NCBI RefSeq assembly: GCF_003544855.1 | Contig: NZ_CP032101.1 | Coordinates: 1,798,001-1,862,000, forward strand | Direction of reading: 5' to 3' | Source of the DNA: Malaciobacter marinus | GTDB taxonomy: Bacteria; Campylobacterota; Campylobacteria; Campylobacterales; Arcobacteraceae | Length of the DNA stretch: 64,000 nucleotides | Shown: positions 52,456 through 60,149 of the stretch, piece by piece | Layout of the letters: each line of letters starts with the position of its first letter | Numbering within the stretch: the stretch's first letter is position 1 | Translations under genes and position numbers: made by a program | Notes under the pieces: generated by a model | The model's input: only the letters and a program-made list of their open reading frames with translations | Databases searched by the model: none | What the model was told of the DNA's origin: nothing

Positions 52456-52465
52456 TTGTATCTTT
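52438..52465. terminator. Terminator hairpin at the left edge of the island
   Basis: The arms 52438-52450 and 52453-52465 pair perfectly over 13 bases around AA. The A-run before it becomes a T-run on the minus strand. Rejoined to 60142 and onward it would lie directly after the stop of the aspartoacylase-like gene, so it was probably a shared terminator before the insertion. Confidence 0.6.
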
Positions 52466-52466
52466 A
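52459..52466. repeat. Target-site duplication, left copy
   Basis: TATCTTTA lies immediately outside the left terminal repeat and recurs at 60142-60149. Eight bases is a normal duplication size for IS256-family transposition. Confidence 0.65.
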
Positions 52467-52490
52467 GAGACTGTTCAGAATTTTGTGTCA
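52467..52490. repeat. Terminal inverted repeat, left end of island
   Basis: These 24 bases match the reverse complement of 60118-60141 at 19 of 24 positions without gaps. The inner 12 bases, AATTTTGTGTCA, are identical. Confidence 0.65.
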
Positions 52491-52611
52491 AAGTTTGATA
52501 ATCTTAAAATTTAGCATGTTAAACTTACTTAGTCAAATTGTTCCAAATATTACAGGTTTTGGAATTTGTTTTTATAACTTGTTTGATACCCTATTTAGTG
52601 TTGACAGAAAA

Positions 52612-54207
52612 CTAATCCTCTTCTTTTCTAAATGGTTCTAAAATGTCTAACTCTTTTTTATAATATTCACTCTGCACTTCAAATAATCCTAAAAGGGTAT
52701 GAGAAAGATTATCTTGTGAATAGCTGTTTTTGCTATTGGCTTTGAGTTCATCAACTTTTAATTCACCCTTGACTTTATCTCCAAACCATAAAACTGATGG
52801 CACGTGTGTTTGCTCAATAGGAGCTAATAAGTCAGGCATTCCATGTAAATAAATTCCATGCTCTCCTAATGATTCCCCATGATCACTCATATAGACCATT
52901 GCTGTTTCAAAATCATTATTCCGTTTTAGAAGGTCAATGACTTTTTTCAAAAAGTAATCGGTATATAAAATCGCATTATCATAGGCATTATCAATCTCTT
53001 CTTTACTACACTCTTCAAGTTGATTGGTTGTACATACAGGGGTAAATTTCTCAAATCGTTTTGGATATCGCTTATAATAAGCTGGCCCATGATTTCCCAT
53101 TTGATGTAAAACAATCATGATATCACCTTTGGGATGAGTATTGATATACTCTTGTAATCCAGATAACATTCCTTCATCTCTACACTCTATATCACAAATA
53201 GGGTTTGTGTCAGAGCTTTGGAAATCTTCATAATCAACTCGTAGGGCAACACCCTTTGAATCAGAATTATTATCTCTCCATAAGACATTGACACCAGATC
53301 GTTTTAAAATGTCCAAAACATTATCTGTATTTCTAACTGCTGTTGAATCGTAGTCTTTCTTTTGTGTCAGGGAGAACATACAAGGTACGGATTTAGCAGT
53401 GGCAGTACCACATGAACTGACTTGTGGAAAATTGATAATATCTTCTTGCTCCAGTAAAGGGTTGGTTTGCTTTGCATATCCATTAAGTGAGAATCTATCT
53501 GCTCGTGCAGTCTCTCCTACAACCATGACAATCAATTCTCTCTCAGGAATTGGTTCATCAATTTTAGCATCCATGGCGACATGTTGAAACTCAACACTTT
53601 TATGAAAATACTTCTCTTTGATAAATTTTTTTACGCTATAGATTTGAAAAGTTGGCGTGGCATAATATCGTATTTGTTTGTGTTCTCTAAAGAACGTTGC
53701 ATAGTAATCCCCTTGAGATACAATGGTAATAACAATCACCAATAAACTTAAAATAAATGATTGTGCTTTTCTTTTGAGTTCCATTTTTAAACTACCAAAT
53801 TGCAGTGGTGTAAAATAGATAAAAATAGATGGGAGAACAAATAAGAATAGAATATATAGCACCATGTTTAAACTGAATAAATCAAGAGATTCTTTCATAC
53901 TTGTTTCAACTGCGTTTTCAATCATACTATGGTCAATAACTACATCATACGTTGTCATAAAGTAATTACTAAAAGCAGCTGTAAGCAACATCAAAATCAA
54001 TAGAGGTTTCGTTGTATATTTTGAAGAGAACAGTAGAAATACTAAGTTCATAAACAAAATGGAGTTTATAATGACTGTTATATCAAATATAATGTTATCT
54101 GAGAATGGATAGATTTCAAATAAGTGTTTAAAAAACGCATTATTACTAAATAGTCCAATCCAAAGTGCAACCAAAAATATAAGTAGGGTTTGTTGTCGTA
54201 TTTTCAA
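52612..54207 (-). CDS. eptA: Lipid A phosphoethanolamine transferase, EptA/MCR family
   Basis: This inner-membrane enzyme transfers phosphoethanolamine from phosphatidylethanolamine to lipid A, reducing polymyxin binding. It has five N-terminal helices (to about 185) and a periplasmic sulfatase fold. The metal site includes VVGETARADRFSLNGY and SDHGESLGEHG. The catalytic Thr is in SCGTATAKSVPC, and HQMGNHGPAYYKRYP binds substrate. The frame opens with GTG at 54270 inside dgkA. AAGGA eight bases before TTG at 54207 makes that start more likely (531 residues). One row I counted (53221-53280) is 22/60 G+C, above its neighbours. Confidence 0.92.
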   Translation of the reverse strand: MKIRQQTLLIFLVALWIGLFSNNAFFKHLFEIYPFSDNIIFDITVIINSILFMNLVFLLFSSKYTTKPLLILMLLTAAFSNYFMTTYDVVIDHSMIENAVETSMKESLDLFSLNMVLYILFLFVLPSIFIYFTPLQFGSLKMELKRKAQSFILSLLVIVITIVSQGDYYATFFREHKQIRYYATPTFQIYSVKKFIKEKYFHKSVEFQHVAMDAKIDEPIPERELIVMVVGETARADRFSLNGYAKQTNPLLEQEDIINFPQVSSCGTATAKSVPCMFSLTQKKDYDSTAVRNTDNVLDILKRSGVNVLWRDNNSDSKGVALRVDYEDFQSSDTNPICDIECRDEGMLSGLQEYINTHPKGDIMIVLHQMGNHGPAYYKRYPKRFEKFTPVCTTNQLEECSKEEIDNAYDNAILYTDYFLKKVIDLLKRNNDFETAMVYMSDHGESLGEHGIYLHGMPDLLAPIEQTHVPSVLWFGDKVKGELKVDELKANSKNSYSQDNLSHTLLGLFEVQSEYYKKELDILEPFRKEED

Positions 54208-54236
54208 AATATGATTCCTTATAAAGTAACAGTAAA

Positions 54237-54599
54237 TTATAAATAAAGATCTAATATTATAGATCCCCACGAAAAAATAAAGACTATAATACTAATAAAT
54301 ACAATAGCACTTCCAACATCTTTTGCTCTTCCTGCCATATGATGGTGTTCTAATGTAACTAAGTCAACAACTCTTTCTATGGCACTATTTGTTGCTTCTG
54401 CAAGTAACATCCCAAATAAGGTAATAAACATAATTAGTTTATATATTAAAGTAGTATCAATTATTATTATATATGGAAATAAAATTAATGTAATAATTAG
54501 TTCAATTTTAAAAGATGTTTCAGTTTTTACTAAATCTAATAAACCTTTTATTGCATACATAGTATTTTTTAGAAAATTATATTTTGGTTGATTTCTCAA
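54237..54599 (-). CDS. dgkA: Diacylglycerol kinase
   Basis: This 120-residue trimeric-type DgkA phosphorylates diacylglycerol to phosphatidic acid. The signature EATNSAIERVVDLVTLEHHH and then AGRAKDVGSA (about 68-97) is complete, with three helices. It sits just before eptA. EptA releases diacylglycerol when it takes phosphoethanolamine from phosphatidylethanolamine, so the pair makes a transfer-and-recycle module. The same pairing is known beside mcr-3 in Aeromonas-type contexts. Confidence 0.93.
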   Translation of the reverse strand: MRNQPKYNFLKNTMYAIKGLLDLVKTETSFKIELIITLILFPYIIIIDTTLIYKLIMFITLFGMLLAEATNSAIERVVDLVTLEHHHMAGRAKDVGSAIVFISIIVFIFSWGSIILDLYL

Positions 54600-54628
54600 G
54601 TTTTTTCCTTAATGAAAATATATTTATT

Positions 54629-56539
54629 TTATTTATAAAGCTTATTTTGATATAAATAATCCAGTGTAATAATAAATGCCAATGCATCTTGTTCTAATTC
54701 TGTATCAGAAACAGTTTCTAAAAGATGCTTATTTTTATATTTATACGTTACCGGTTTTTTCCCAGGTTGAATTATAGCAATACTATCATTTACTCGTAAA
54801 GCATAAGAGTTATGAAACTGCATAAAAGAGAGATTCTGTTTTTTATCACTAAAAATTGAATGTCCAAGAATAGGGAAATTCAAGTCAATACCGATTAAAT
54901 CAAGTGCTGTTGCTAAGATATCTGGCTGTGTTGTTATCTTGTCATACTTCATTGGCTTCACGCTTTCTGAAATTATAAATCCTGGTATATGAAACATATT
55001 TACAGGAATTACATCTTCTCCATACACACGTATGTTATGATCTGCTACGACAACAAAAACGGTGTCTTTATAATAAGATTCTTGTTTTGCTAATTCAAAA
55101 AACTTTCCAATTGCAAAATCTGCATATTTAATTGCATTTTTGACACTTTTTTTAGGTACATTATCAATAAGTTCTATTTTATTATTTGGGAAATCAAAAG
55201 GTGAATGATTTGAAGTTGAGAACATTACACTAGCAAACTTTTGATTATTTTTATAATGTTTAGCAAATTCATTATTAGCTCTAATAACCATATCTTCATC
55301 ACTAACACCCCACGTGCCAGTAAAAGAAGGATTATTAAAACGTGGTTGGTCAATAATTTCATCAAAACCATTTCCTAAAAACCATCCTCTCATATTATCA
55401 AATCGACTTTCACCACCATAAATAAAAGAAGTATGATAACCATACGGTTTTAATAAAGAAGCGATGGTAAAGAAATCTCTTTGAGATTTATTTCTTTTGA
55501 TTACCCCTTTACCTGGAATTGCAAAGTTTCCAGCCATACACCCAGCTATTCCTCGTACACTTCGTGTACCATTTGAATATAAATCTGTAAATAAAATACC
55601 CTCTTTACTTAAACGATTTATATTGGGAGTAATTCCTTTTTCACCACCTACAGCTTCTACAAATTGTGCACCTAAACTCTCTTGTATAAAAATAACCAGA
55701 TTTTTTGATGAAACATCATGAAAATTCGTTGGTTGAACTCTTGAAAAAGGCAATTTTACATTGTTACTACTTATATTTAATCTTTTTTGAACTCGATTCA
55801 ATGCTTCATCTATAGGCATATTACCGTACTGCTTTAATAAAGCTTTGTTATTATTCTTTTTATTGATATAAATAGCATATCCTATACTGTACAATGAATT
55901 TTTTGTAATCTCATTTAGTATTCTATTTGATGAATACATTGCATCAGATTGATTTGCAGGTCGATGTCCAAATGATGAACGAATACCTATAAATAAAAGT
56001 ATTGATAATGGCAAAAATAATGCAAGTCTTTTTATATAATGAATGTCAAAGAGTCCTTTAAAATAAAATTTGAAAAGTTTTAAATATCCTATAATAAATA
56101 TAGAAATTAATAAGACTGCAAAAAATAGTTCTAATTTATATTCTGCAAAAATCATAGAGAAAACTTCTTGTGGATATACTAAGTATTCCACAAATAAATA
56201 ATTTGGACGAACATCATATTCTAAGATAAAAGGAAAAGTGGCAACTTCAATATATATCATACAAGATATTGTAATGACAAAGTAATATTTTAATGTGGAT
56301 TCATAAAACTTAGATGCATATTTAGGTAATAAAGTCATCATAAATAAAGGAATAATTAGAATGATAGAGACACTAATAGTATCCATTCTCAATCCATAAA
56401 TAAAAGTCAGCCAGTAATTAACATCTGTGTGATTACTAAAATTATCAAAGTACATAATAAACAGACATAAACGTCCAATAAAAAGTATACCTATCATTAT
56501 TAAATAATGTATTGCCAATGTTTTAAAGATTCTCATCAA
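54629..56539 (-). CDS. LTA-synthase-like membrane sulfatase (phosphoglycerol or phosphoethanolamine transferase)
   Basis: This 636-residue protein has five N-terminal helices (about 7-190) and a large external sulfatase-fold domain. Family blocks are FIQESLGAQFVEAVGG (metal-binding Glu, about 290), YSNGTRSVRG with the catalytic Thr (about 325), TSNHSPFDFP (about 445) and VVVADHNIRV with metal-binding Asp-His (about 505). LtaS/MdoB relatives transfer phosphoglycerol from phosphatidylglycerol, also releasing diacylglycerol that DgkA could reuse. Substrate and acceptor are unknown. Confidence 0.82.
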   Translation of the reverse strand: MMRIFKTLAIHYLIMIGILFIGRLCLFIMYFDNFSNHTDVNYWLTFIYGLRMDTISVSIILIIPLFMMTLLPKYASKFYESTLKYYFVITISCMIYIEVATFPFILEYDVRPNYLFVEYLVYPQEVFSMIFAEYKLELFFAVLLISIFIIGYLKLFKFYFKGLFDIHYIKRLALFLPLSILLFIGIRSSFGHRPANQSDAMYSSNRILNEITKNSLYSIGYAIYINKKNNNKALLKQYGNMPIDEALNRVQKRLNISSNNVKLPFSRVQPTNFHDVSSKNLVIFIQESLGAQFVEAVGGEKGITPNINRLSKEGILFTDLYSNGTRSVRGIAGCMAGNFAIPGKGVIKRNKSQRDFFTIASLLKPYGYHTSFIYGGESRFDNMRGWFLGNGFDEIIDQPRFNNPSFTGTWGVSDEDMVIRANNEFAKHYKNNQKFASVMFSTSNHSPFDFPNNKIELIDNVPKKSVKNAIKYADFAIGKFFELAKQESYYKDTVFVVVADHNIRVYGEDVIPVNMFHIPGFIISESVKPMKYDKITTQPDILATALDLIGIDLNFPILGHSIFSDKKQNLSFMQFHNSYALRVNDSIAIIQPGKKPVTYKYKNKHLLETVSDTELEQDALAFIITLDYLYQNKLYK

Positions 56540-56570
56540 TACTCTTCTCCAATTAAAATAAAGTAGAATA

Positions 56571-57545
56571 TTAAATTATGAAAATGAAATGAAAATGAAA
56601 AGGGTATAGTGTATAGTGTATAGTGATAATATGAGGATAAGTTTTAGCCCACTTATCTTCAAACTCTTTTAAAGCATTTAATGCTGATTTTTCATTTACT
56701 GCTTTATAGATGAATTTTAAATCATCTGCAAGCTCTTTTCTATCTTTCCATGAGACAAACTTCAAAGAGTTTCTAATTTGATGTACAATACATCTTTGAA
56801 CTTCAGAGTGAGGATAAACTACTTGAATAGCATTAGAGAATCCATTTAATCCATCTACTGCAAAGATAAGAACATCATTTACACCTCTATTCTTCAGTTC
56901 ATTTAAAACACCTAACCAATACTTGGATGATTCAGTCTTAGCAATCCAAACACCTAAGACATCTTTATGTCCATCAAGGGTAATTCCAATCATCAAATAA
57001 GCAGCTACATTTCTGACTTGTCCTTCAAGTCTTACTTTTAAAAATGTGGCATCCATAAAGATAATGGCATAGATTGATTCTAATGGTCTTATTTGCCACT
57101 CTTTGGCTTTTTCAATAACTGCATCAGTGATATTGGAAATGGATTCATGAGAGATATTATGATCATAGAGTTCTTCAATATGGGATTGAATATCTCTGGT
57201 ACTCATTTCTTTAGCATAAAGTGATATTACAGCATCTTCAATACCATGAATATCTGTTTGTCTTTTTTTAATGATTTCAGGGTGAAAATCAGAGTTTCTA
57301 TCTCTTGGAATTGAGACATCTATAACACCAAACTTGGAGTTCAGTGATTTATCATTATGACCATTACGGTAATTGTCAATTTGAGAACTTTGATGCTTCT
57401 CATAGCCCAAATGGTGTGTTATTTCTTGTTCGGTTAAAACTTCAATAACATCTTTAACCATCGACTTCATAACATCATTGACATCATCTAAGGACTTTAT
57501 CTGTCCACTCTTGTAAGCCTCTTTGATTGCTTCTTTATCTATCAT
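56571..57545 (-). pseudogene. IS256-family transposase, C-terminally truncated
   Basis: The 324 codons match an IS256/mutator transposase from the N terminus (ITHHLGYEKHQ) through the first two catalytic Asp blocks, FMDATFLKV and FAVDGLNGF. Similarity ends near residue 305 at KTYPHI. The last 19 codons (reading ITIHYTLYPFHFHF) come from low-complexity flanking sequence. Full proteins have about 400 residues, and the missing part contains the catalytic Glu and the right inverted repeat. It should be inactive. It lies between the kinase and the sulfatase genes. Confidence 0.88.
56605..56625. repeat. Three tandem copies of TATAGTG at the IS breakpoint
   Basis: Seven-base units at 56605, 56612 and 56619 lie exactly where transposase similarity ends. 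They contain AGTGTATA, which also borders the intact IS end at 57606-57613. Confidence 0.6.
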
Positions 57546-57580
57546 GTAAATCTCCTTCTTAGATTTTATCTAATTTGGAA

Positions 57581-57605
57581 TTTACACAGTTTTATTTACA
57601 CTCCC
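57581..57605. repeat. Left terminal end of the truncated IS256 element
   Basis: Read on the minus strand it begins GGGAGTGT and continues to TGTGTAAA, the pattern of an IS256 end, about 35 bases before the transposase start. It resembles the island right end at 16 of 24 positions. Confidence 0.5.
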
Positions 57606-57626
57606 AGTGTATATAGTTTTACTAAT

Positions 57627-58958
57627 TTATAATGGGAGTTTAACGGTTACTAAGGTACCTTGATTAGTAGAATTGATTTGTAATATTCCTTTATGAAGGT
57701 CAATACAAGATTTAACAATGAATAATCCTAATCCAACTCCTTGTATATTTTTATTTCTTGATTCTTCAACTCTAAAAAATTCATCTGTAACTTTTTCTAT
57801 TTTGTCTTTTGGAATACCAATCCCTTCATCTTGAATTTTGAAAATAGCATAGTTTTCTTCTAAATAAAGTTCAATATTGATATTAGAATTGTTATGACTA
57901 TATTTAATTGCATTATCAACTAAGTTCTTAAAAATGGTATGAAGAAGATTATGATTGCCCAAATATTTTAATGAATGAAACTCTTTCAAAGTTAAATTGA
58001 TATTCTTATTTTTTAAATCATTGTTATACTGTTCAATTATATTCATAATAATAGAATCTAATTGACACCAACTAAAAGAGTTTTTTACATTATATTTTGT
58101 ATATTTTGTGTAGAACAGCATTTCATCAGTAATGTTTGATAATTGGTTTACCGCTTTTAATATAACTTCTAAACTTTTAATATAGTAATCAGGTTCTCGA
58201 ATATTTTTCAATGTAACTTCAGCTTCACCTTTTATGATAGTCAATGGAGTTCTAAATTCATGAGAAACATTTTTATTAAAGGTATCTAATTTGGAAACTC
58301 CTTCTTTTAGACGAGAAATCATACTATTAAATGATGAAATTAATTCAGATATTTCATCTTTATTAGATGGGTTTTCAATTGAAGTTGATAAATCTGAAAC
58401 TGTAATATTTTTAGCATCTCTTGTAATGTTTTTAATTGGTATTAATATTTTATCAATAATCTTATTTGCAAGAAACATTAATACTATCAATAATATAGGA
58501 ATTGTGCCGAGTAAAATATGCTCAATGTCTTCTGCTTGATTATGTATATTTTTTTTATATAAAAGAATATTTCCTACAAAGGGATTTGTAAATTTATATG
58601 AATATATTGCATCTACTTCAAAGTTATTGATTTCATTAATATATAACTGAGGCTCTTGATATAATGTTTCATAATTCTTTAATGTAAATTTTTTCGTTTG
58701 ATATATTAATTTATTTTTTTTTAGAATAGCAACTTCTACGTCTTTTAGTGTTTCATCAATAATTATGTTTGTATTAAATTTATTTTCTTTTAAATCAAGA
58801 TGTAATGAAATTGCATATTGCTCTAGTTGTTCAAGTATGCGCTTGTTAATACTTTCTTCAAGTAAATAATATAAAGCATAACTAAAAATAAAAAGTATAA
58901 TAAAAATTACACTTGAAAACCAAAAAAGAATTTTATGTTTAATACTTTTAAATCTCAA
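57627..58958 (-). CDS. Sensor histidine kinase (PmrB-like position)
   Basis: This 443-residue kinase has two helices (about 10-30 and 150-170) around a periplasmic loop of about 115 residues. A HAMP domain follows, then the H box NVSHEFRTPLTIIKGEAEV (about 229), N box FKNLVDNAIKYSHNN (about 345), and G boxes DEGIGIPKD and GVGLGLFIVKSC. Its start lies 11 bases inside the regulator gene. In the undisturbed order it would be followed by the sulfatase, dgkA and eptA, which it probably controls. Confidence 0.92.
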   Translation of the reverse strand: MRFKSIKHKILFWFSSVIFIILFIFSYALYYLLEESINKRILEQLEQYAISLHLDLKENKFNTNIIIDETLKDVEVAILKKNKLIYQTKKFTLKNYETLYQEPQLYINEINNFEVDAIYSYKFTNPFVGNILLYKKNIHNQAEDIEHILLGTIPILLIVLMFLANKIIDKILIPIKNITRDAKNITVSDLSTSIENPSNKDEISELISSFNSMISRLKEGVSKLDTFNKNVSHEFRTPLTIIKGEAEVTLKNIREPDYYIKSLEVILKAVNQLSNITDEMLFYTKYTKYNVKNSFSWCQLDSIIMNIIEQYNNDLKNKNINLTLKEFHSLKYLGNHNLLHTIFKNLVDNAIKYSHNNSNINIELYLEENYAIFKIQDEGIGIPKDKIEKVTDEFFRVEESRNKNIQGVGLGLFIVKSCIDLHKGILQINSTNQGTLVTVKLPL

Positions 58959-59601
58959 TTTTATACCCTATGCCTCTAAAACTTTTAATAAGTTCTTTAC
59001 CTACTTTCTTTCTTAAATTATATATTGTAACTTGAATCACATTGCTATTGAGAAACTCCTCATTACTATATAGCATTTCCTCAATAGTATCTTTTGAAAT
59101 ATAGGAGTTTTTGTTTTTAATTAACAATAACAAAAGTTCATATTCTCTTATAGATAAATTAATAATAGAATTATCTTTTAAAACCTCTTTGGTATCTAAA
59201 TTTACTTTTAGATTAGAAAATTCCATTATATTACTCATTTGTGAACTTCTTCTATACAGTGAAGTTACTCTAGCCTCTAATTCTTCAAATGAAAAAGGTT
59301 TAGATAGATAATCATCACAACCTGTTTTTAAACCTGTTATCTTATCTTCAACTGCATCTTTTGCTGTTAACATTAATATCGGTGTAAAAATGTTCTTTTG
59401 TCTTAAATTGTTTAAGATTTCGATACCATTTTTTTTAGGTAGCATCCAGTCTAATATAATTACGTCATATTTGTTAATGATAGAAAGATACTCTCCTTCT
59501 TCCCCATCATTTGAAATTTCAATAGTATAATGTAATTCTTCAAATCCTCTTTTTAGGAAATTTGCAATATCTTTATCATCTTCAATTATTAAAATCTTCA
59601 T
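58948..59601 (-). CDS. OmpR-family response regulator (PmrA-like position)
   Basis: This 217-residue regulator has the acidic pocket IIEDDKD (5-11), phospho-Asp in VIILDWMLPKKNG (about 51), Thr in LMLTAKDAVED and Lys in YLSKPFSFEELEARV (about 101). The winged-helix domain spans about 125-217, ending SFRGIGYKIEI. It is the first gene of the island's leftward series. By analogy with PmrAB it would switch on lipid A modification under envelope stress. That role is inferred from context. Confidence 0.92.
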   Translation of the reverse strand: MKILIIEDDKDIANFLKRGFEELHYTIEISNDGEEGEYLSIINKYDVIILDWMLPKKNGIEILNNLRQKNIFTPILMLTAKDAVEDKITGLKTGCDDYLSKPFSFEELEARVTSLYRRSSQMSNIMEFSNLKVNLDTKEVLKDNSIINLSIREYELLLLLIKNKNSYISKDTIEEMLYSNEEFLNSNVIQVTIYNLRKKVGKELIKSFRGIGYKIEI

Positions 59602-59968
59602 AACTACTATACTCTATATATAAATTTATTTAACAAACTATGTTGGAATTATTTTATAATATAATATATGTTAAATCAACATTAATTATAAATCTCAACT
59701 TTTACACATAGAAAATCATAAGTAAATCCATATATAGGTGATTTTAGGTATAATTATTTACCTTAAACATCAATATATAAAGGGGGGGGATAATATGTGT
59801 CAAACTATGGTAAATATATACCACCACTGGAAATCTCCCGTAAACAATATTTTTGGTTCACTCTACAACTTCTTATATTAGAAAATCTTACTTACTGGCT
59901 TTACAACCTTTATATAGAGATATAATTTGTTCCAAAAAGTGTTCAATAAGTAGAATTTATAGATTCTT
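59602..59968. other. Gene-poor stretch inside the island
   Basis: These 367 bases upstream of the response regulator hold its promoter region. They also include a run of eight G (59782-59789) and a 28-codon frame at 59795-59881 after it. I see no convincing gene. Confidence 0.5.
59782..59789 (+). repeat. Homopolymeric G tract (G8)
   Basis: Eight consecutive G stand out in very A+T-rich sequence. They precede an ATG (59795) by five bases, where a ribosome-binding site would be. Poly-G tracts are the usual phase-variation sites in Campylobacter. Confidence 0.5.
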
Positions 59969-60130
59969 TTAAACCCTTAAGACTTTTTGAATAACAAAAA
60001 TCACTTTTGTAAGCTGTTTAATAAGAGGAGCTGAAACTACATATTTAGTATCTTTTGCATCAGATTTTAATTGTTCAAATGCACCTGTTAAATCCTCTAG
60101 AATAAATTCTATCAGACTGACACAAAATTT
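59969..60130 (-). pseudogene. Gene remnant at the right end of the island
   Basis: An open minus-strand frame without a start begins inside the right terminal repeat. It reads protein-like sequence, including EDLTGAFEQLKSDAKDTKYV and SAPLIKQLTKVIF, then stops at 59969. It looks like the 3' end of a gene cut by the element end. The family is not recognised. Confidence 0.35.
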
Positions 60131-60141
60131 CTAACACTCCC
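60118..60141. repeat. Terminal inverted repeat, right end of island
   Basis: This is the reverse-complement partner of 52467-52490 (19 of 24 matches). Read inward from the right end it starts GGGAGTGT, like the internal IS256 end at 57605. Confidence 0.65.
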
Positions 60142-60149
60142 TATCTTTA
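60142..60149. repeat. Target-site duplication, right copy
   Basis: TATCTTTA is identical to 52459-52466. It overlaps the stop codon of the aspartoacylase-like gene (60147-60149). Confidence 0.65.

Follow-up and report, generated by a model that had tools for sequence, protein, structure and literature searches.

In the 64,000-nucleotide stretch of Malaciobacter marinus DNA analysed here (contig NZ_CP032101.1, positions 1,798,001 to 1,862,000; hereafter the window), five genes encoding an OmpR-type response regulator (RR), a sensor histidine kinase (HK), a lipoteichoic acid (LTA)-synthase-like membrane transferase, the diacylglycerol kinase DgkA and the transferase EptA are the cargo of an IS256-type transposon flanked by a target-site duplication (TSD), rather than an operon standing alone or an island of a generic kind. 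We consider it likely that an IS256-family transposon with cargo landed between a NikL-like gene and an AstE-like gene and brought in a self-regulated operon for the modification of lipooligosaccharide (LOS) and lipid A, with recycling of diacylglycerol by DgkA. On this reading the genes, which would allow the bacterium to change its outer surface in response to polymyxin-like antimicrobials, arrived together on a mobile element, and so constitute a mobile, self-regulated envelope-modification kit rather than a fixed chromosomal trait.

Boundaries and insertion site of the transposon

The transposon is 7,675 bp long (52467..60141) and is delimited by empty sites in two related genomes and by its TSD. 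G003 and the nearest sister genome, G001, both have the AstE-like gene immediately after the DUF4198 and NikL-like genes; in the source genome the distance is 7.7 kb. The 8-bp TSD, TATCTTTA, is present as a left copy (52459..52466) and a perfectly matching right copy (60142..60149), and occurs once at the empty site of G001 (L223). The ends of the transposon are 24 bp long, asymmetric and inverted: end A, GAGACTGTTCAGAATTTTGTGTCA (52467..52490, plus strand), is also found in other elements, and end B, GGGAGTGTTAGAAATTTTGTGTCA when written as the reverse complement (60118..60141, minus strand), is inverted relative to it. The first 52 nucleotides of end B are identical to those of intact elements at 50 of 52 positions. 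Next to end B, in the expected position and orientation, lies a remnant of the transposon's own IS256-family transposase (60005..60094, minus strand), an N-terminal part covering residues 6-36 of about 400 with up to 64.5% identity (tblastn). With its own transposase reduced to this fragment, the window element is a member of its transposon type without autonomy, and it would be mobile only if a related transposase acted in trans.

A tRNA-targeted island was rejected, since the window contains no tRNA gene. Promoter and terminator scans gave no useful excess over shuffled sequences. The search of the M. marinus source genome for these ends found this element alone. An earlier note on this DNA had described the five genes as a self-contained lipid A modification module. 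What stands of that description is a recurrent cluster of two membrane-anchored transferases of the sulfatase fold, DgkA and a two-component system (TCS), but the unit is larger than proposed, being the cargo of a transposon whose ends and TSD fall just outside the interval considered there (52612-59601); an IS256 remnant inside that interval (56571-57545) had also been overlooked. A run of 8 G (59782-59789) lies in an A+T-rich stretch inside the transposon, about 180 bp upstream of the start of the RR gene; homopolymeric G runs are often variable in length in Campylobacterota.

Sibling elements with the same ends

The consensus of the two ends was searched in 101 genomes of the family and then in 397 genomes of the phylum, with the reversed end pattern as a control. 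Convergent pairs of end A and end B were found in other Campylobacterota genomes, and the reversed pattern gave no match in the same searches. The same asymmetric end pair bounds at least 15 more elements with cargo in Campylobacterota, 2.2-16.7 kb long (L264-L274 and L284-L287, in genomes G445, G449, G375, G293, G427, G325, G300, G208, G378, G347, G018 and G327), and G325 alone holds four. With the window element counted in, 13 of 16 elements have a perfect 8-bp TSD. Intact siblings encode a 400-residue IS256-family transposase (NF033543-type, PF00872) beside end B that is transcribed inward, and their cargo is placed between the transposase stop codon and end A. Cargoes include ArsR with an ArsP permease, an RND efflux operon, a LysE exporter with PhzF, a cytochrome bd oxidase and a SIR2-STAND protein, among others. 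Four genomes from three genera share the ArsR-ArsP element at 98-99.6% identity, yet its flanks are unrelated and its target duplications differ; near-identity at unrelated sites indicates that cargo and transposase moved together recently. A plain form of 1,305 bp with its own 8-bp duplication is present in G229, and cargo reaches 14.7 kb in an element with a TSD. In viral contigs the end pattern gave 16 scattered single matches.

Tentatively, these elements may form an undescribed class of IS256-family unit transposons that shuttles adaptive operons between Campylobacterota genera, the cargo in the window being a complete, self-regulated LOS-modification operon in which EptA and an LTA-synthase-like LOS transferase drawing on phosphatidylglycerol share one DgkA.

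A different arrangement was weighed, in which the structure is a composite transposon mobilised by a pair of insertion sequences (IS) at its ends, or a chance pair of repeats, rather than a unit element with one transposase. A second IS256-family transposase remnant lies inside the element, between the HK gene and the LTA-synthase-like gene (56571..57545, minus strand; PF00872, NF033543), and would fit such an origin. Against it, the intact relatives have a single transposase proximal to end B with cargo on its far side, up to end A, and the inner remnant, which is about 42% identical to this transposon's transposase family, belongs to a different IS256 group and has no partner copy. A composite origin is therefore very improbable. 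The inner remnant, which has lost its C-terminal part (its homology ends at 56625) and is present once in the genome, was also rejected as the vehicle of the five genes, given its different group and the lack of a second copy.

The cargo genes

All five open reading frames are intact and lie on the minus strand in the order RR, HK, LTA-synthase-like gene, dgkA and eptA (span 52612-59601); this is the leftward order given in the earlier note, and the families assigned there were confirmed by Pfam and NCBIfam profile searches. The RR (58948..59601) has PmrA as its best NCBIfam model, below the cut-off, and the HK (57627..58958) has HAMP, HisKA and HATPase_c domains. The LTA-synthase/OpgB-like membrane transferase (54629..56539; PF00884) starts at TTG 56539 or ATG 56536. 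The prokaryotic diacylglycerol kinase gene dgkA (54237..54599) matches PF01219 with 96.7 bits against a cut-off of 22.3, and eptA (52612..54270) encodes a predicted Campylobacterota-type lipid A phosphoethanolamine transferase of 552 residues when read from GTG, although the true start may be internal.

The G+C content differs among these genes. The counts that had first hinted at a mosaic (22 of 60 letters in a row of eptA and 17 of 60 in a row of the sulfatase-fold gene) are exact, and the difference is real at the level of whole genes: 0.323 for eptA (0.26 at third codon positions) against 0.279 for the LTA-synthase-like gene, 0.231 for the HK gene and 0.237 for dgkA. These values support the hint, and the cargo may itself be a mosaic. 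The resident eptA genes of sister species have a G+C content of 0.23-0.25.

EptA is a Campylobacterota-type enzyme and not a mobilised colistin-resistance (MCR) protein, as judged from its sequence. It scores 150 bits with PF08019, 207 bits with PF00884 and 660 bits with NF028537 (cut-off 500), and the catalytic motifs GETAR, SCGT.T..S.PCMFS, NHGP and SDHGESLGE.G.YLHG are present in the alignment with MCR-1 and Neisseria meningitidis EptA. The pairing of eptA with dgkA on a mobile element resembles mcr-3 and could point to an MCR-type gene from Gammaproteobacteria; the pairing does exist beside mcr-3, but it is not special to it, being resident in this genus and known in Vibrio (PMC12064563). 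Every MCR model lies far below its cut-off (the best gives 441 bits against 1200), identity is 41.6% to MCR-1 and at most 41.7% to other plasmid matches over most of the query, and a tree of 67 proteins places EptA inside 53 Campylobacterota rows, apart from every MCR. EptA as an MCR is rejected by these model scores, plasmid identities and tree position, and a gammaproteobacterial MCR source is very improbable.

For the LTA-synthase-like protein, the best solved relative is the uncharacterised Vibrio protein VP1736 (PDB entry 3lxq, E 7e-108); LtaP of Listeria and LtaS2 of Bacillus come next. An AlphaFold model with a mean pLDDT of 73 gives TM scores of 0.85 to 3lxq and about 0.70, normalised by target, to LtaP/LtaS. 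The protein combines membrane helices with an extracytoplasmic sulfatase fold that has metal and nucleophile residues. E287, T325, H445, D500 and H501 are invariant in 14 relatives, and we take them to match by position the metal ligands, nucleophile and substrate histidine of LtaS. Fold and catalytic residues are thus common to this enzyme, LtaS/LtaP/OpgB and 3lxq, but the window enzyme stands in a Gram-negative LOS-gene context and reaches no curated cut-off for a named transferase. It is best read as a putative transferase of phosphoglycerol type whose acceptor would be LOS or some other periplasmic molecule. The protein groups with one from an Arcobacter sp. inside a Sulfurimonas-rich clade (L066/L143).

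A second clade of LTA-synthase paralogues, 26-31% identical, recurs beside the first (L073, L074, L075, L138, L150, L105, L165), frequently with TCS, eptA or PAP2 genes nearby, and scores higher with the OpgB and LtaS models (up to 95 bits). LTA-synthase homologues of 58-66% identity also occur in gammaproteobacterial metagenome-assembled genomes (MAGs) and vent symbionts (L134, L135, L152-L154, L160, L161, L163, L168, L170), which suggests that sulfidic habitats have allowed exchange with Campylobacterota, unless the sequences were wrongly binned.

Recurrent clustering and the two-component system

The co-clustering of eptA, dgkA and TCS genes with LTA-synthase homologues is real and far beyond chance. 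Around 31 homologues of at least 50% identity, sampled evenly over the phylum, eptA was found within 3 kb at 9 loci, dgkA at 11, HK genes at 6 and RR genes at 7, where about 0.08 would be expected per single-copy gene. All five gene types occur together in G380 (LTA-synthase-like gene, dgkA, RR, HK, eptA) and in G349 (eptA, dgkA, LTA-synthase-like gene, RR, HK), the latter with a more distant LTA-synthase paralogue, and the window's order of LTA-synthase-like gene, dgkA and eptA recurs in a Sulfurimonas MAG. Within 4 kb of LTA-synthase homologues the commonest families are eptA (27 loci) and dgkA (23), then PAP2 (best score lipid A phosphatase) and heptosyltransferase, with smaller numbers of HldE, GmhA, GmhB and LpxL.

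The TCS had been described as a PmrAB-like switch. Neither protein reaches the equivalog cut-off of its counterpart (RR against PmrA, 187 against 330; HK against PmrB, 136 against 314), but a genomic link of this type of TCS to envelope-lipid genes is present: 6 of the 20 nearest relatives of the HK adjoin eptA or LTA-synthase-like genes, and others adjoin DedA or PAP2 genes. The RR-HK pairs closest to that of the window have small PepSY-domain proteins beside them (L299, L306, L316); PepSY genes also adjoin eptA in some Vibrio.

Proposed function of the operon

Enzymes of the EptA type draw on phosphatidylethanolamine, and the diacylglycerol left behind is recycled by DgkA. From family knowledge, EptA would transfer phosphoethanolamine from phosphatidylethanolamine to lipid A, and the LTA-synthase-like enzyme would take a group of phosphoglycerol type from phosphatidylglycerol and pass it to LOS or some other acceptor in the periplasm. 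Both reactions would release diacylglycerol, to be rephosphorylated by the one shared DgkA, and the TCS would turn the set on under envelope stress. The operon may confer polymyxin resistance. In this scheme the whole set would have entered by insertion of the IS256-family cargo transposon, with its 8-bp target duplication, between the NikL-like and AstE-like genes.

Several observations weigh against the delivery of a coherent LOS-modification operon by a transposon: (i) A matching TSD is absent in 3 of the 16 elements. (ii) No further copy of the five-gene module was found in the same transposon type among the 227 loci compared. (iii) Although its orientation is the same, the inner IS256 remnant may break the link between the TCS and the enzyme genes. 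(iv) The best NCBIfam matches of the LTA-synthase-like protein are OpgB-type phosphoglycerol transferases, far below cut-off (60 bits against 572 for the OpgB/LtaS equivalog). The last point would also suit a reading in which the LTA-synthase-like gene belongs to another envelope pathway, as a phosphoglycerol transferase for osmoregulated periplasmic glucan or capsule, and is a neighbour that shares DgkA rather than part of one lipid A module; 22 of the 31 sampled loci have no eptA within 3 kb. Against a separate pathway stands the company that the gene keeps, namely eptA, dgkA, PAP2 genes of the lipid A phosphatase-like type, heptosyltransferase and heptose synthesis genes, and LpxL. We regard a separate pathway as unlikely, though it deserves more weight than a composite or MCR origin, and favour a single LOS-modification operon.

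Origin of the cargo and the resident locus of the genus

Four of five other species of the genus carry RR, HK, eptA and dgkA, in that order, elsewhere on the chromosome, with EptA proteins 55-57% identical to that of the window. None of the five has an LTA-synthase-like gene, and G001, the closest sister, has no eptA. At the matching place in the source genome (L332/L333, G000:C1, about 2.902-2.907 Mb) the RR and HK of the resident locus are retained, the eptA-dgkA pair is gone with no detectable remnant, and an AT-rich gap is left. The source genome thus has two PmrAB-like systems, the resident RR and HK sharing 50.7% and 31.4% identity with their counterparts in the window. The simplest history is that eptA-dgkA was lost in the common ancestor with G001 and regained by the transposon. 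Because the resident pair is missing, the transposon probably restored a lost function and is probably its only source in this genome.

The resident locus of the sister species could also be taken to mean that the window genes are the vertically inherited eptA operon of the genus, rearranged and invaded by an IS. The phylogenetic check proposed in the earlier note put EptA among Campylobacterota enzymes and not with MCR, but its tree neighbours are three genomes of another family (support 88) rather than its own genus; approximately unbiased (AU) tests give p 0.056 for a grouping with the genus and p 0.23 for one with the family, neither of which is a firm rejection, and alone are not decisive. 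Vertical inheritance is opposed by four lines of evidence: (i) The resident locus persists elsewhere with its own RR and HK and without eptA-dgkA. (ii) The insertion that holds the window copy is flanked by a TSD, and its empty sites are clean. (iii) EptA is far less similar to the sister copies than the flanking AstE is to its own (80-91%). (iv) The G+C content of eptA is higher, 0.32, than that of the sister genes. Inheritance of the operon within the genus, which we consider highly unlikely, is largely refuted by the empty sites and by the persistence of the resident TCS, and a strictly vertical origin of the cargo is rejected by synteny.

Relation to known systems

Operons joining a TCS with dgkA and eptA are already known; what is new here is the IS256-type vehicle that carries the cargo, together with the LTA-synthase-like partner. 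Colistin resistance in Vibrio depends on dgkA as well as on eptA, and both genes are controlled by a TCS encoded next to them (PMC12064563). The rstAB/carRS-dgkA-eptA operons described there resemble the window in having the TCS beside dgkA and eptA, but no LTA-synthase-like gene is named in that paper, no mobile element surrounds the conserved Harveyi-clade copies and their EptA is gammaproteobacterial. The mcr genes adjoin dgkA or pap2 (PMC10285318, PMC7559476). Plasmid-borne mcr-3-dgkA likewise places an EptA-type transferase beside dgkA on mobile DNA, but the enzyme is 36% identical, there is no TCS or LTA-synthase-like gene of its own, and the transposase context is another. Closer in content is plasmid pWTT2411 of Methylophaga pinxianii (L329, 150385-162265), where eptA, HK, RR, dgkA and a divergent gene of the LTA synthase family lie within 7 kb; it differs in its order (eptA-HK-RR-PAP2-dgkA), in the added PAP2 gene and in an LTA synthase homologue of 34.5% identity. 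The pWTT2411 cluster adjoins glycosyltransferase genes.

With IS256-family IS and transporter IS (tIS, PMC9330008) the element shares a Mutator-family transposase, terminal inverted repeats, an 8-bp duplication and passenger genes in one IS-like unit. Transporter IS are known in other IS families (PMC9330008, PMC10132070), and a 2014 survey stated that the IS256 family 'contain only ISs' (PMC3942029); unlike that description, the elements found here carry cargo, of up to 14.7 kb where a TSD is present. The literature search yielded no paper linking LTA synthase with eptA and dgkA, and nothing on Arcobacter IS256 transposons; ISfinder and TnCentral were outside its scope, and an earlier description there is possible.

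For annotation the finding is relevant since the IS256 family has so far been described as plain insertion sequences only. In Campylobacterota, predicted lipid A modification genes of the intrinsic type travel together as one complete, regulated operon, and the same vehicle also carries efflux, arsenic-resistance, respiration and defence genes, which bears on the spread of polymyxin tolerance and other traits in a group with emerging pathogens. The recurrent cluster of LTA-synthase-like enzyme, EptA, DgkA and TCS in two phyla predicts a second lipid-derived decoration of LOS in Gram-negative bacteria.

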